Below, piece by piece: positions 23,632-27,679 of a stretch of DNA of 64,000 nucleotides. A program made the position numbers and the translations under genes. Source of the DNA: Paenibacillus aurantius. GTDB taxonomy: Bacteria; Bacillota; Bacilli; Paenibacillales; NBRC-103111. The notes below the pieces were generated by a model that had not been told where the DNA came from, did no database searches, and saw only the letters and a list, made by a program, of their open reading frames with translations. Positions within the stretch are counted from its first letter, which is position 1. Every line of letters begins with the position of its first letter. The stretch lies in contig NZ_CP130318.1 in assembly GCF_032268605.1 (NCBI RefSeq), positions 2,576,001 through 2,640,000 of the forward strand, in the 5' to 3' direction.

Positions 23632-23810
23632 CGATCCGGACTCCTGTTCTCGTCATGTTCGCAAGGAAAGTAGAAACTCATTTTTCCATAGTCGGCGTGC
23701 TTTGGCAAGAGGAAAAAGGTTTAATTTCCACGGGTTGCCTTCATACTATAGCTAATGCCTTATTCTGGGCGTATAAAAAGAAGCTGGCAAGCAATCGGAG
23801 GTTCTCTGGC

Positions 23811-25475
23811 ATGAAGGCAGCCCCTAAACCATTAATGCTGTTAAACAATAGAACGGTCCTCCTTGAGACGGACCATCCCGAATACGAGACGATCCGAAGC
23901 CGACTGGCCCTGTTTGCCGACCTGGTCAAAAGCCCGGAGAATCTTCATACCTACCGGATCACGCCTTTTTCCTTATGGAGTGCGGCGGCGGCGGGGGTAC
24001 GGGAGGAAGACATACTCGGTCTTCTGGAGCAGTATGGTAAGTTTCGGGTACCCGACTCCGTCCGCAAGGAAATCACGGCCTACTACAGCCGTTACGGAAT
24101 GCTTCATCTGGAGAGGCAGGAAAGCCGGCTGCTGCTCGTTTCCAACAGCGCTGATTTCCTCGACCGGCTGGAAGCCAACCCCTCCCTGGGCGGAATGCTC
24201 ATCGGCCGCTGCTCCGCGGAAACCATCGAAATCAAGGAATCCGCGAGAGGGCTGCTTAAGAAGGAATTGACGCGGCTCGGCTATCCGGTCATCGATTACG
24301 CGGGCTTCCACGAAGGAGAAGCCTTGGATATTCGTCTTCAGACGGCCAACGCGAAAGGGGTTCCTTTCTCTCTTAGATCCTACCAAGCGGAAGCGGTCGA
24401 GGTGTTCTGCCGGACGGGAAGCCGTCATGGGGGAAGCGGAGTCGTGGTTCTTCCATGCGGAGCCGGCAAAACGGTCGTCGGGATCGGGGTGATGGCCCGG
24501 CTGAACTGCGCCACCTTAATTCTGACCACCAATGTGGCGTCGGTGCGCCAGTGGAGGAAGGAGATTCTGGAGAAGACGGGGGCCGGGGAGGACCAGATTG
24601 GGGAATATACAGGAGTCCGGAAGGAAGTCCGCCCCATTACCATTGCCACGTACCAGATTCTCACCCACCGCAAGTCGAAGGAAGGGGAATTTCCCCATAT
24701 GCATCTGTTTAACGAGCGGGATTGGGGGTTGATCATCTACGACGAGGTGCACCTGCTGCCCGCTCCGATCTTCCGCGTCACGGCAGACATCCAAGCAACC
24801 CGGCGGCTCGGTCTGACGGCCACACTGGTCAGGGAGGATGGCTGCGAAGAGGATGTCTACGCCCTGGTCGGTCCCAAGCAGTACGAGCTCCCCTGGAGGG
24901 AGCTGGAGGCAAAGGGCTGGATAGCCGAAGTGACCACGACGGAAGTCAGACTTCCGCTCAGCGAGAAGGCGAGAGCCGGGTATGAGAAGGCCGGTCCCCG
25001 GAGCCGTTACCGGCTCGCAGCCGAGAATCCCGACAAGCTCCAGGTGGTCCGGCAGCTGCTGAACCGGCATAAGGGCCTGCCTACCCTTATCATCGGCCAA
25101 TACCTGGACCAGCTCCGTCTGATCGCGGAGGCGACCGGGGCTCCTCTCATTACCGGAGCAACGGACCACGAGGAACGGGAGCGGCTGTACCGGTGTTTTC
25201 GAAGCGGGGAAGTGTCCCTTCTGGTGGTCTCCAAGGTAGCCAATTTTGCCGTGGATCTCCCGGAAGCCGCGGTAGCCATCCAAGTGTCCGGCAGCTACGG
25301 ATCTCGTCAGGAGGAGGCTCAGCGGCTCGGCCGTGTCCTCCGTCCGAAAGCCGGAGTGAACCGGGCATACTTCTATACGCTGGTCAGCCGGGAGACGAAC
25401 GAGCAGGAATTTGCCCTTAGGCGCCAGATGTTTCTGGTCGAACAGGGCTATCATTACCGGATTGTGGAATCGTAA
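23811..25475 (+). CDS. XPB/Ssl2-type DNA helicase (superfamily 2)
   Basis: 554-residue helicase related to eukaryotic/archaeal XPB. After a 190-residue N-terminal part come Walker A LPCGAGKTV, motif II YDEVHLL, SAT-like GLTATLVRED, then the second RecA fold with a VVSKVANFAVDLPEA segment and motif VI QEEAQRLGRVLRP. XPB enzymes unwind 3'-5' in repair or transcription. I start at ATG 23811 behind CGGAGG; upstream codons in frame lack a ribosome site. Only 18 bases separate it from its partner gene, so the two are surely one transcript. Confidence 0.85.
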   Translation: MKAAPKPLMLLNNRTVLLETDHPEYETIRSRLALFADLVKSPENLHTYRITPFSLWSAAAAGVREEDILGLLEQYGKFRVPDSVRKEITAYYSRYGMLHLERQESRLLLVSNSADFLDRLEANPSLGGMLIGRCSAETIEIKESARGLLKKELTRLGYPVIDYAGFHEGEALDIRLQTANAKGVPFSLRSYQAEAVEVFCRTGSRHGGSGVVVLPCGAGKTVVGIGVMARLNCATLILTTNVASVRQWRKEILEKTGAGEDQIGEYTGVRKEVRPITIATYQILTHRKSKEGEFPHMHLFNERDWGLIIYDEVHLLPAPIFRVTADIQATRRLGLTATLVREDGCEEDVYALVGPKQYELPWRELEAKGWIAEVTTTEVRLPLSEKARAGYEKAGPRSRYRLAAENPDKLQVVRQLLNRHKGLPTLIIGQYLDQLRLIAEATGAPLITGATDHEERERLYRCFRSGEVSLLVVSKVANFAVDLPEAAVAIQVSGSYGSRQEEAQRLGRVLRPKAGVNRAYFYTLVSRETNEQEFALRRQMFLVEQGYHYRIVES

Positions 25476-25493
25476 AACGGAGGCGGCTGGAAT

Positions 25494-27185
25494 ATGAACA
25501 ATAGCGATCAACAGGGGAACGGCCGTCCGGCCGTTCTTTATTCAGGGCTTCCCGCTCTGGCGAAGGACGTCGTGAGGATAATTGTGAGCTATTCGGCCTG
25601 CTGCCCGTTCGGAATAAGCCATCTGGAGGACTGGGCGGAGCGGGAGGGGCTGTCGGGGGCGGAGGCCGCGGCCGGCCTTGCGGTTCTTCGAAGAAGAGGC
25701 GCCGTCGGCTTCTTCCATGAACCCGGAACCGCTCCCTATCATATGCTTCCTAAGGAGCGCCTTGCCGAATGGCATCAAGTGCTTTTTCCGCGCCTTGACG
25801 AGGAGCCCATCTCCCCGCTGGACAGGGAAGAGCCCATCCTCTACCGGCCGCTGGCGGCGGTTCATGCCATGCTGCAGTTTCTATCCTATGTCTCGTGGGA
25901 GGACATCCGGCTTACGCAGGCGGGGCGATTCCCCCTCCGGGCCGGGAAGAGCCTGGAGAAACGGCTCGAGGGTTTCAGCCCTTACGGAAAAGACGGACGA
26001 ACAGATGCCGGGCCCGGAACGGGAGAACGGCTGATGGAGTGGGCCCAGGAGCTAGGGCTTCTAAAGGTGGTAGGGGGGCAGCTTCGTCTCGTCCCCCCCG
26101 CCTTGAAAGAATGGCTCGGTAAGAGGCCCTGTGTCAGGGATGAAGAGCTTCGCGGCATCTGGCTGGGGAAACAGCCGATCCGCAGCCCGCTGGAAGCCCA
26201 TCTGGCTGCCGCTGCCGAGAACGGTTCCGCCGGCTGTTCTTTCTCCGTCGATGATCTGGTCAAGAAGCTTAAAGCTTGGGGGATTCCGATTGACCAGGAG
26301 GACCCAACCCTATCCAGCTTCGAAAGCCAATGGCTTAAGCCGATGGCGGGCATGGGCTGGATGGAGCAGGCGGAGCGTCCGGATGGCACTATCTGCTTTC
26401 GCCGTTTGGCAGCAGAAGCGGCTGAAATAAATAGGCTGGAAGAACTAGAAGAGGAAGAGAAGGAAGCGGTCCGTTGGTATGTGCAGCCCGATCTGGAGGT
26501 TATTGTGCCTCCTGGTATCCCTCATGAGCTTCTATGGGAGCTCGAGCTGATGGCCCTCCGGGTCGGGAGCGATGATTGTCTGCTCTACCGGCTCACCCGG
26601 GAGACCTGGCTTCGCGCTTTAGCCGGCGGTCGTTCGGCGGAGAGGCTCATTCGTTTCCTGGACGGGCATGCCGTCTATGGACTCCCGGGTAATGTGGAGC
26701 TCATTCTGCGGGAGTGGGGGGAAGAGCAAGGCATTTCCAGCGGCACAGGCGGCGCCAGCCCACTTTATCTGGAGCTGGGCCGTGAAGGAGCGAGCAATCC
26801 CTGTTCTCTGCCGGAGCCAGCGGTTTCCCGGGGAGAAAAAGGACGCCGCACCCGGCCGTCCATCCGGAAGGCATCGGTCCAAGCTGTAGCGCCCTGGGCT
26901 CCGGAGTGGGAGGAGGAGAGGCATACCGTTCCCGCCATGTGGCTGAAAGAGTGCCGGCCCTATCATTTTAGTACGATGAAGGAGATGATCCGGCAGGCGG
27001 CCGAATGGAAGACGTTTCTTTACTTGAAAGACGCCGGAACCGCGCGAAAGGTCCTTCCCAAGAAGCTTCACGAAGAAAAAGGAAGATGGAGACTGGAAGC
27101 GCTGGAAGGCAATAGGATGGTCGTGATCCCGCAGAAAGAGACGCTCCAATTACAGATTCTGTTACCGGAAACAGGCGATTCGTGA
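25494..27185 (+). CDS. Partner protein of XPB helicase (helicase C-terminal-domain-3-like)
   Basis: 563 residues. The N-terminal half is a string of winged-helix-like segments; the stretch VQPDLEVIVPPGIPHELLWELELMA followed by YRLTRETWLRALAGG and LPGNVELILREWGEE is the signature of the Helicase_C_3/XPB-associated family. No Walker motif, so it is not itself a helicase. In mycobacteria and other bacteria a gene of this family stands beside XPB, which suggests a complex. A Pro/Arg-rich linker and an extra 90-residue tail end the protein. Confidence 0.7.
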   Translation: MNNSDQQGNGRPAVLYSGLPALAKDVVRIIVSYSACCPFGISHLEDWAEREGLSGAEAAAGLAVLRRRGAVGFFHEPGTAPYHMLPKERLAEWHQVLFPRLDEEPISPLDREEPILYRPLAAVHAMLQFLSYVSWEDIRLTQAGRFPLRAGKSLEKRLEGFSPYGKDGRTDAGPGTGERLMEWAQELGLLKVVGGQLRLVPPALKEWLGKRPCVRDEELRGIWLGKQPIRSPLEAHLAAAAENGSAGCSFSVDDLVKKLKAWGIPIDQEDPTLSSFESQWLKPMAGMGWMEQAERPDGTICFRRLAAEAAEINRLEELEEEEKEAVRWYVQPDLEVIVPPGIPHELLWELELMALRVGSDDCLLYRLTRETWLRALAGGRSAERLIRFLDGHAVYGLPGNVELILREWGEEQGISSGTGGASPLYLELGREGASNPCSLPEPAVSRGEKGRRTRPSIRKASVQAVAPWAPEWEEERHTVPAMWLKECRPYHFSTMKEMIRQAAEWKTFLYLKDAGTARKVLPKKLHEEKGRWRLEALEGNRMVVIPQKETLQLQILLPETGDS

Positions 27186-27191
27186 TATGAT
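27162..27191 (+). promoter_or_regulatory. Candidate ricF promoter
   Basis: TTACCG (27162-27167), 18-bp spacer, TATGAT (27186-27191) with TGA extension; it overlaps the end of the preceding gene. Confidence 0.5.
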
Positions 27192-27223
27192 AGAAGCAGT
27201 TTATAGGAAGGGAGAGTTGCTTC

Positions 27224-27679
27224 TTGAGCATCAAAGAAGCCGCCGCGCTCGACATGTCTTCCGTGCTGCTGCAGGCTTACGAGCTGGGAGATTTAATCAA
27301 TTCCTCCGCCGAGATGGCGGATTACTTATATTGGAAAGAACGGGTACAGAAGGATGAGGAGGCCCAGAAATTGATTGCCGGGTTCGCCCGCCTCAAAGAA
27401 AAGTTCGAGGAATGCGAACGGTTCGGTCACTTTCATCCGGATTATCATAAGGCTCTGGAGGAAGTTCAGCGCTGGCAGGAGAAGATGGAGGAGTGTGAGG
27501 CGCTGAGAAGGTATCAGCAGGCCGAGGGCGCCGTGGACAATCTTCTCTTCACCATCTCCAAAACCATCGCCCATGCCGTGTCCGATACCATCAAGGTACC
27601 GAGCAACAACCCGGGCGTGGAAAGCGGAGGCTGCAGCTCGGGAGGCTGCAGCGGAAACTGCAGCGGAAGCTGCGGATAA
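27224..27679 (+). CDS. ricF: RicF (YlbF), Y-complex subunit
   Basis: Subunit of the RicA-RicF-RicT complex, which in Bacillus carries iron-sulfur clusters and promotes RNase Y-dependent mRNA maturation, competence, sporulation and biofilm formation. The helical YlbF/YmcA body (ELGDLINSSAEMADYLYWKERVQKD...) is followed by a tail with four cysteines in the last 20 residues (GGCSSGGCSGNCSGSCG), the cluster-binding part. TTG start after AAGGGAGAG. The next gene, on the other strand, ends only five bases away with no terminator between. Confidence 0.88.
   Translation: MSIKEAAALDMSSVLLQAYELGDLINSSAEMADYLYWKERVQKDEEAQKLIAGFARLKEKFEECERFGHFHPDYHKALEEVQRWQEKMEECEALRRYQQAEGAVDNLLFTISKTIAHAVSDTIKVPSNNPGVESGGCSSGGCSGNCSGSCG

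Follow-up and report, generated by a model that had tools for sequence, protein, structure and literature searches.

In human TFIIH, p52 (Tfb2; GTF2H4) recruits XPB (Ssl2) through a clutch that has the fold of the XPB N-terminal domain, giving a pseudo-symmetric dimer (PMC6422496). The p52 clutch and the p52-p8 dimer contact the clutch domain and the second RecA domain of XPB (PMC9557730). Chaetomium p52/p8 switch on the XPB ATPase and, once DNA is present, limit it, acting as activator and speed limiter (PMC7708078). XPB is also known in many bacteria, where its job is still called elusive (PMC13024598). The Mycobacterium tuberculosis enzyme (Rv0861c) is of the same family as the XPB described below and has the N-terminal domain; p52 is stated not to have been found in bacteria (PMC3353954). 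Here, we analyze a 64,000-nucleotide stretch of the Paenibacillus aurantius genome (RefSeq assembly GCF_032268605.1, contig NZ_CP130318.1, positions 2,576,001 to 2,640,000), called the window below. It carries an xpb gene directly followed by a gene for a protein that we name P2. We consider it probable, with good confidence, that each gene encodes one half of an XPB-p52 module in this bacterium, corresponding to the core found inside eukaryotic TFIIH.

The window's XPB is a full-length family match, with 834 bits against NCBIfam NF045503 (cut-off 610) over residues 1-548. Its residues 6-552 align with residues 23-572 of human XPB (chain 8ebt_A). The Walker A motif (GAGKT), DEVH, the RED motif and motif VI are all present by eye, so that the helicase motifs that translocation or unwinding would use appear to be in place. 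Only 18 nt separate xpb from P2, and 38 nt lie between P2 and a third open reading frame (ORF) of ricF type. On re-reading the sequence, the three ORFs of the initial annotation, their strands and both gaps proved exact. The single Pfam match of the window's P2 is PF13625 ("Helicase_C_3"), at residues 330-412 (36.6 bits, cut-off 34.2). PF13625 is the Pfam domain that the window's P2 and the XPB N-terminus have in common. Given the clutch pairing in TFIIH, p52 is a candidate identity for a bacterial XPB partner that shares this domain with the XPB N-terminus. We read the "Helicase C3" part of P2-type proteins as a clutch, not as a helicase.

Compared with p52/Tfb2, P2 has the same order of a winged-helix arm and then a clutch homologous to the XPB N-terminal domain, and it is encoded beside XPB. 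In many members of its family, the position of the p52 C-terminal dimerisation domain is taken by a p8-like module. Unlike TFIIH, the bacterial module consists of two genes, and the window's P2 is without the p8-binding module. Its C-terminus is predicted to be WYL-like, a feature not known in p52 to our knowledge.

Homology of the P2 family to TFIIH p52

Family profiles were used because a search of the PDB with the window's P2 as a single sequence was empty. P2 sequences were taken from relatives of the window's genome, named plasmid records, one phage record and 80 named loci retrieved by means of an XPB alignment. Two profiles that share part of their members were searched against all PDB sequences (177,635 distinct ones for the 42-member profile). 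The 46-row alignment left out the frames of loci L064, L094 and L095. The 42-member alignment holds the window's P2 and 41 others from 60 frames; the 19 dropped were 7 XPB and 12 P2 left out by choice (second copies, odd starts, one broken, divergent). Frames cut by contig ends never entered the alignments.

With the 46-member profile, Tfb2/p52 comes out on top (1.6e-7 for Chaetomium, 5e-7 for human), followed by XPB N-terminal domains; yeast Tfb2 is found at 1.1e-5. With the 42-member profile, XPB N-terminal domains reach 6.4e-11 and p52/Tfb2 reaches 1.7e-10 (Chaetomium), 5.6e-9 (human) and 7e-7 (yeast). The top 14 rows of this search are all XPB or p52, the last being a p52 C-terminal fragment at 0.017. 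TFIIH p52 and XPB N-terminal domains are the only matches below E 0.1, and the first unrelated row is CapW, at E 0.16. The match to Chaetomium p52 (6trs_A) starts in the winged-helix arm and covers winged helix and clutch (profile positions 235-450), and that to human p52 extends past the clutch into the C-terminal module. Single members are recognised at E 0.1 by PF13625 (44/46 and 42/42) and by the Pfam Tfb2 family PF03849 (11/46 and 7/42); TIGR00625 matches two of the 42 at E 0.01.

The AlphaFold2 model of the window's P2, computed from prokaryotic alignment rows only, has a mean predicted local distance difference test score (pLDDT) of 83.2 and a predicted template modelling score of 0.81. 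A Foldseek search of this model against 350,542 PDB chains gave 19 matches at E ≤0.001. Ranks 1-18 are TFIIH p52/Tfb2 chains (5.7e-9 to 3.5e-4), where the chain name is known for 8ebt, 6trs, 7o4i and 7zs9 and the other ranks are assigned from entry and chain length. Rank 19 is an unrelated chain, at 7.8e-4. With the VIA tool, P2 residues 323-415 superpose on the XPB N-terminal domain with Z 15.2 and a root-mean-square deviation (rmsd) of 1.6 Å over 91 residues. By family profile and predicted fold, the P2 family is homologous to p52/Tfb2 over the winged-helix arm and the clutch, and its clutch is homologous to the N-terminal domain of XPB itself.

The clutch of P2 was also compared with the two eukaryotic ones by means of profiles built from prokaryotes only. 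Human p52 scores 37.9 bits against the P2-type clutch profile vs 14.8 against the XPB-type one, and Chaetomium p52 34.3 vs 14.6. Human XPB scores 69.3 bits against the XPB-type profile vs 48.5 against the P2-type one. When searched against the PDB, N-terminal fragments of human XPB and human p52 fail to match each other at E 1; the bacterial P2 family is what bridges the two. Two clutch trees were built, of 93 and 104 rows, after thinning by similarity (60% identity and at most 45+45 rows; for the second, 50% and 55% and at most 60+40). Both split eukaryotic p52 and P2 from XPB and human XPB at 100/100; bootstrapping of the second tree had not converged. The common winged-helix arm and the module that follows are a stronger argument for kinship with p52 than the trees.

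In alignments of many P2 relatives, about 65 residues after the clutch form a p8-like module; XPB, too, has this module behind its N-terminal domain (best 3.4e-8 with a module profile). In PDB searches it aligns with Tfb5 at E 0.03 with 28 rows (ranks 2-6), at 0.2 with 47 rows and at about 1 with the P2 profiles, so enlarging the alignment from 28 to 47 rows weakened the match. The 47 rows come from 66 slices, the dropped ones being two XPB and otherwise close copies or slices left out by choice. The module also aligns with the p52 C-terminus in the P2-profile search. Matches ranked above Tfb5 (glycolate oxidase; uS15, Ap3 and others) were taken as chance. Six separate p8-like ORFs of 65-115 residues were found between xpb and P2, three in Planctomycetota and three in Deinococcus (module profile 2.3e-10 to 1.2e-5); that of L161 is the end of a longer frame with a mechanical start. 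None of the six has a Pfam Tfb5 match, and their Pfam matches are unrelated and below cut-off (best DUF2336, 4.9e-4). The model of the Gemmata ORF (75 residues, pLDDT 88.5) has a predicted b-a-b-b-a fold. Foldseek ranks 1-17 for this model are only TFIIH p8/Tfb5 or p52 chains (E 0.008 to 0.75, none at 0.001). VIA places two XPB chains first (Z 7.0 and 6.8; the region is taken as DRD), then Tfb5 (5.9), the Tfb2 C-terminus (5.5) and archaeal aIF1 (5.0). These small ORFs resemble TFIIH p8/Tfb5 (GTF2H5) in being separate and perhaps in fold, and differ from it in that their sequence match is not significant and their best VIA match is a region of XPB. Kinship with p8 is probable, not proven.

At the other end of P2, residues 491-558 match the C-terminal domain of DriD with single-stranded DNA bound (VIA Z 8.4, rmsd 2.1 Å over 67 residues, 22% identity). 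PafBC, BrxR and CapW follow in the same search, and Hfq and further small barrels score little lower; Z of about 8 is near the background stated for the tool. The WYL family PF13280 matches 3/46 and 2/42 P2 members and gives no match in the window's P2. The model suggests a WYL-like C-terminus, akin in fold to DriD, PafBC, CapW and BrxR. PafBC and DriD are described as sensing single-stranded DNA, and WYL joined to "Helicase C3" was counted earlier (PMC6789036).

A second clutch-region match is seen near the P2 C-terminus in L164, L161, L148, L097-L099, L134 and L145, perhaps making two clutches per chain.

Joint conservation and linkage of xpb and P2

We compared the window's own genome with 58 relatives. 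XPB and P2 occur together in 51 of these 59 genomes, both are lacking in 8, and neither is ever found without the other. The initial annotation had named a lack of co-conservation as one result that would refute its helicase/partner pair, and the pair withstood this check. Presence of XPB means E < 1e-100 here; E 0.001 gives 53 genomes, the extra two (G037, G041) having weak generic helicase matches. The joint absences occur in several families and, once, within a genus that also has members with both genes, so joint loss took place repeatedly. Thus, xpb and P2 are kept and lost together.

Across 299 genomes of the phylum, the XPB model matches 268 at E 0.001, as it does in 14/14 control genomes, and exceeds its cut-off in only 20. 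P2 is present in all 20 of these. Among the 279 genomes without XPB over the cut-off, P2 occurs in one (with a split XPB) and a short P2-like partner in two more; 276 of the 299 have no P2-profile match. In 18 phylum genomes outside the order, P2 adjoins XPB in 15, a short partner does so in 2, and P2 is on another contig in 1. Within the order, P2 is the next gene in 20/20 examined loci (of 51 genomes), with a 4-nt overlap in 14 of the 20 by mechanical starts.

Named loci were the best 80 of at least 587 confirmed XPB candidates; this set overlaps the others (L103 and L128 resemble contigs of L079 and L060). P2 lies within the flank in 54 of the 80, its nearest copy always on the XPB strand, and not in 26. 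With at least 2.5 kb on both sides (n = 58), P2 is found in 44, of which 34 are within 300 nt or overlapping. Of 14 such well-flanked loci without a nearby P2, 12 were searched genome-wide, and P2 was found elsewhere in 11. By record title, linked loci occur in Bacillota, Actinomycetota, Chloroflexi, Planctomycetota, Hydrogenedentota, Gemmatimonadota, Latescibacterota, Cyanobacteria, Sumerlaeota, SAR324, Deltaproteobacteria, Spirochaetaceae, Thorarchaeota and Methanosarcinales. The pair is thus real and co-conserved, as the initial annotation had it, and its mention of mycobacteria agrees with the loci in Actinomycetota. In public records, several P2-type proteins go by the name "helicase-associated domain-containing protein".

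In three thorarchaeal loci (L138, L140, L152), P2 is 1.7-3.6 kb from XPB and beside a gene of the replication factor C (RFC) type, tested with Pfam in L138 only. P2 is complete in L138 and L140, and both of these copies have a Cys-rich stretch at their end. An Asgard/Theionarchaea family, fam18955, has been called TFIIH-like: it is annotated ERCC-3, has distant RAD25 homology and lies beside replication factor C genes (PMC9258230). The thorarchaeal P2 of L138 likewise adjoins an RFC gene; unlike our assignment, that paper likens fam18955 to RAD25/XPB and not to p52. We infer that fam18955 is probably the P2 family.

Three Chloroflexi loci (L134, L145, L167) carry two different P2 genes in tandem after xpb. 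In L066 and L067, the gene of a short P2-like partner (383-400 residues) comes after that of a divergent XPB (31% identity) and overlaps it by 4 nt. XPB is in three pieces in L088 (G005:C12), with an apparently intact P2, by a frameshift in the gene or in the assembly.

Proposed action of the pair and rival explanations

Most likely, P2 would dock XPB through its clutch and regulate the XPB ATPase during DNA opening, by analogy with TFIIH. The clutch-type domains of the two proteins would form a pseudo-symmetric heterodimer tethering XPB to P2. Like p52/p8, P2 would switch on the XPB ATPase and cap its rate, and its winged helices may hold DNA or another partner. XPB would then pump duplex DNA so as to open it where there is a lesion or where a polymerase stalls or starts. 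Bracing of the second RecA domain may, in relatives, fall to the p8-like module that follows the clutch or to the separate p8-like protein. More tentatively, the terminal WYL-like fold might bind the single strand exposed by XPB and feed back. A role in repair or linked to transcription, proposed in the initial annotation, is plausible; defence, which it also named, fits poorly with P2 (0/42 PADLOC matches at E 0.01) and with a gene order that is steady across the order. The description of the partner as a real, co-conserved companion of XPB likewise stands, with the kinship to TFIIH p52/Tfb2, which gives a specific and testable mechanism, having been missed.

Several results weigh against the assignment to p52. 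In Pfam and NCBIfam scans, the window's P2 matches neither PF03849 nor TIGR00625, and as a single query against the PDB it finds nothing at E 10; judged by sequence, homology to p52 is a property of the family profile, not of this protein alone. Residues important at the yeast Tfb2-Ssl2 interface (PMC9557730) are not obviously kept in P2, by eye. Superposition of P2 residues 1-419 on p52 with VIA gives Z of about 14.5 and rmsd values mostly near 15; the model suggests that P2 and p52 have the same domains, arranged differently, hence the poor whole-chain superposition. The clutch trees, with 111 usable columns, few eukaryotic rows and human XPB as the sole eukaryotic XPB row, favour the kinship with p52 and do not prove it. 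The approximately unbiased (AU) test does not reject a tree that holds P2 apart from p52 (AU p 0.335); when rooted, such a tree is compatible with kinship. Nor does it reject placing eukaryotic p52 with eukaryotic XPB (0.256 and 0.201) or p52 with bacterial XPB (0.106). The Tfb5 sequence matches of the p8-like module are not significant in PDB searches (E 0.03-1.4). By alignment and model, the window's P2 and several relatives are without this module, and the window's genome yielded no separate p8-like ORF, the sole match at E 0.1 being inside XPB. Fibrobacter has XPB and no P2 was found in its whole-genome search. Finally, the 299-genome scans scored no more than four candidates per genome, so that their absences are less certain than those in the 59 genomes. 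The window's P2 has lost the p8-like module, as have several relatives. Because the C-terminal p8-binding module is absent, we class it as a variant resembling p52 rather than as p52 proper.

The winged-helix matches and the WYL-like C-terminus, with its resemblance to DriD, PafBC, BrxR and CapW and its WYL Pfam matches in 3/46 and 2/42 members, would also suit a stand-alone transcription regulator. Such a P2 would respond to DNA damage through a WYL sensor of single-stranded DNA and control xpb or other genes, not binding XPB. This is unlikely: the clutch is the most constantly recognised part of P2 (PF13625 in 42/42), the best fold match over residues 1-419 is p52 and not a regulator, and one would expect a pure regulator to survive in at least some of the 8 relatives without XPB. 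WYL proteins often regulate defence, and the helicase core of XPB resembles PADLOC PbeA (best 1.6e-23, best stretch 181-342). That the pair is an anti-phage defence system is nevertheless highly improbable, as no P2 member of the 42 matches any PADLOC model at E 0.01, the context of the locus is constant across the order, and among 50,697 phage records a single one has XPB at E 1e-20, an unverified faecal scaffold.

We give still less credence to a joint action with RicF in RNA maturation, in which gene order would reflect a common pathway. It would account for ricF following xpb-P2 in 49/51 genomes, but ricF is present in all 59, including the 8 without xpb-P2, no RicF match was found in 20 loci from 18 other phylum genomes, and annotated loci outside the order have other neighbours. 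A helicase-nuclease pair, with P2 as the nuclease, has a precedent in Bax1, the known archaeal partner of XPB (PMC7672443), and two nuclease-named Pfam families match one member each of the 46 (EEP_ig-like, E 0.047; Slx4, E 0.064). Both matches are at chance level and neither recurs among the 42 members. Among the listed fold matches of P2 (p52, winged-helix proteins such as RPC62, and WYL proteins) no nuclease was noticed. While XPB has a dedicated partner in both cases, Bax1 is a nuclease and P2 gives no convincing nuclease signal; we give this explanation very little probability. The XPB-p52 module is the reading that we retain.

The present data contradict the statement on bacterial p52 in PMC3353954. 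XPB in bacteria, proteins with WYL and "Helicase C3" and the Asgard TFIIH-like family were already known; the p52-like identity of the partner appears to be new. No paper naming a prokaryotic p52 or p8 was found in a search that reached few subscription papers and no bioRxiv preprints, which is not proof of novelty. In one study, deleting XPB in M. tuberculosis made starved cells more sensitive to rifampin, an effect not seen in a CRISPRi screen cited in the same paper (PMC10534295). This hints at a role tied to transcription, which the partner now makes accessible to testing. Together with the p8-like proteins of some phyla, a p52-like partner offers a purifiable two- or three-protein system without the other human TFIIH subunits, suited to asking how the XPB motor is driven and braked by p52/p8. 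The pair also bears on the origin of TFIIH, because Thorarchaeota carry it. Tentatively, and with more doubt than confidence, the XPB-p52-p8 core might be an ancient prokaryotic DNA-opening machine of bacteria and archaea (including Asgards), inherited by eukaryotes, with TFIIH built around it. In bacteria it might then work on its own as a "mini-TFIIH", opening DNA at lesions or at RNA polymerase and using the WYL-like sensor to read the strand thus exposed.

Features of the locus and its neighbours

Table 1. Features of the xpb-P2 locus (window positions) and loci with a separate p8-like ORF. Handles beginning with L denote loci, with G genomes and with C contigs.
Feature	Position	Strand	Basis
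CGGAGG, likely ribosome-binding site of xpb	23796..23801	+	sequence
xpb, DNA repair helicase XPB, 554 aa	23811..25475	+	NF045503, 834 bits
XPB N-terminal (clutch-type) domain, residues 9-132	23835..24206	+	PF13625, 1.1e-26
CGGAGG, likely ribosome-binding site of P2	25478..25483	+	sequence
P2, p52/Tfb2-like XPB partner, 563 aa	25494..27185	+	family profile and predicted fold
P2 residues 12-322, mostly helical winged-helix region, counterpart of the p52 N-terminal arm	25527..26459	+	AlphaFold2 model; residues 1-419 aligned to p52
P2 residues 323-415, clutch domain	26460..26738	+	PF13625; VIA Z 15.2
P2 residues 417-458, low-confidence linker at the site of the p8-like module of relatives	26742..26867	+	pLDDT < 50; alignment
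P2 residues 491-558, WYL/Sm-like barrel (suggested)	26964..27167	+	VIA Z 8.4 to DriD C-domain
ricF-type YlbF-family gene, 151 aa, TTG start	27224..27679	+	PF06133, 4.4e-22
Order xpb, p8-like small ORF, P2	L148, L161, L164 (Planctomycetota); L097, L098, L099 (Deinococcus)		

The third ORF belongs to Com_YlbF and has a Cys-rich tail; its two NCBIfam matches stay far below their cut-offs. This tail and a YlbG-like stretch downstream, seen by eye, suggest RicF rather than another YlbF/YmcA member. A ricF gene lies 3' of xpb, on the same strand and within 2.8 kb, in 49 of the 51 XPB genomes (5.9 kb away in one and on another contig in one, three pieces of one broken XPB being taken as one). Because of this count, the xpb-P2-ricF arrangement is far beyond chance. 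A special tie of the pair to ricF, to which the initial annotation calls it coupled, is not borne out by the presence of ricF in genomes without XPB or by the 20 loci without a RicF match, some of which are ended by contig ends. ricF is a lineage-conserved neighbour, perhaps co-transcribed.

LexA-type boxes with up to one mismatch number 26 vs 26.1 expected, and the sole exact site (29656) is not upstream of xpb; no link to the SOS response is claimed for this reason. Scans for promoters and terminators were at chance level, and neither a transcription start of the operon nor a separate ricF promoter is claimed as a result.

A 508-kb replicon of Paenibacillus cellulosilyticus listed as a plasmid (L092) carries xpb-P2-ylbF-ylbG together with ftsW and other core genes. 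The faecal "bacteriophage" scaffold with XPB and P2 (L102, MT836665.1) is an unverified record and probably bacterial DNA. A paralogue of the P2 winged-helix arm without the clutch, 372-403 residues long, was found in L195 (5025-6164, minus strand), which is the copy of the window's own genome (about 3723024-3724163, G000:C1) and has no Pfam match, and also in L196, L197 and L198. In all four loci (own genome, G051 and two Brevibacillus), the fetched stretch contains a Rieske-type (qcrA-like) ORF.

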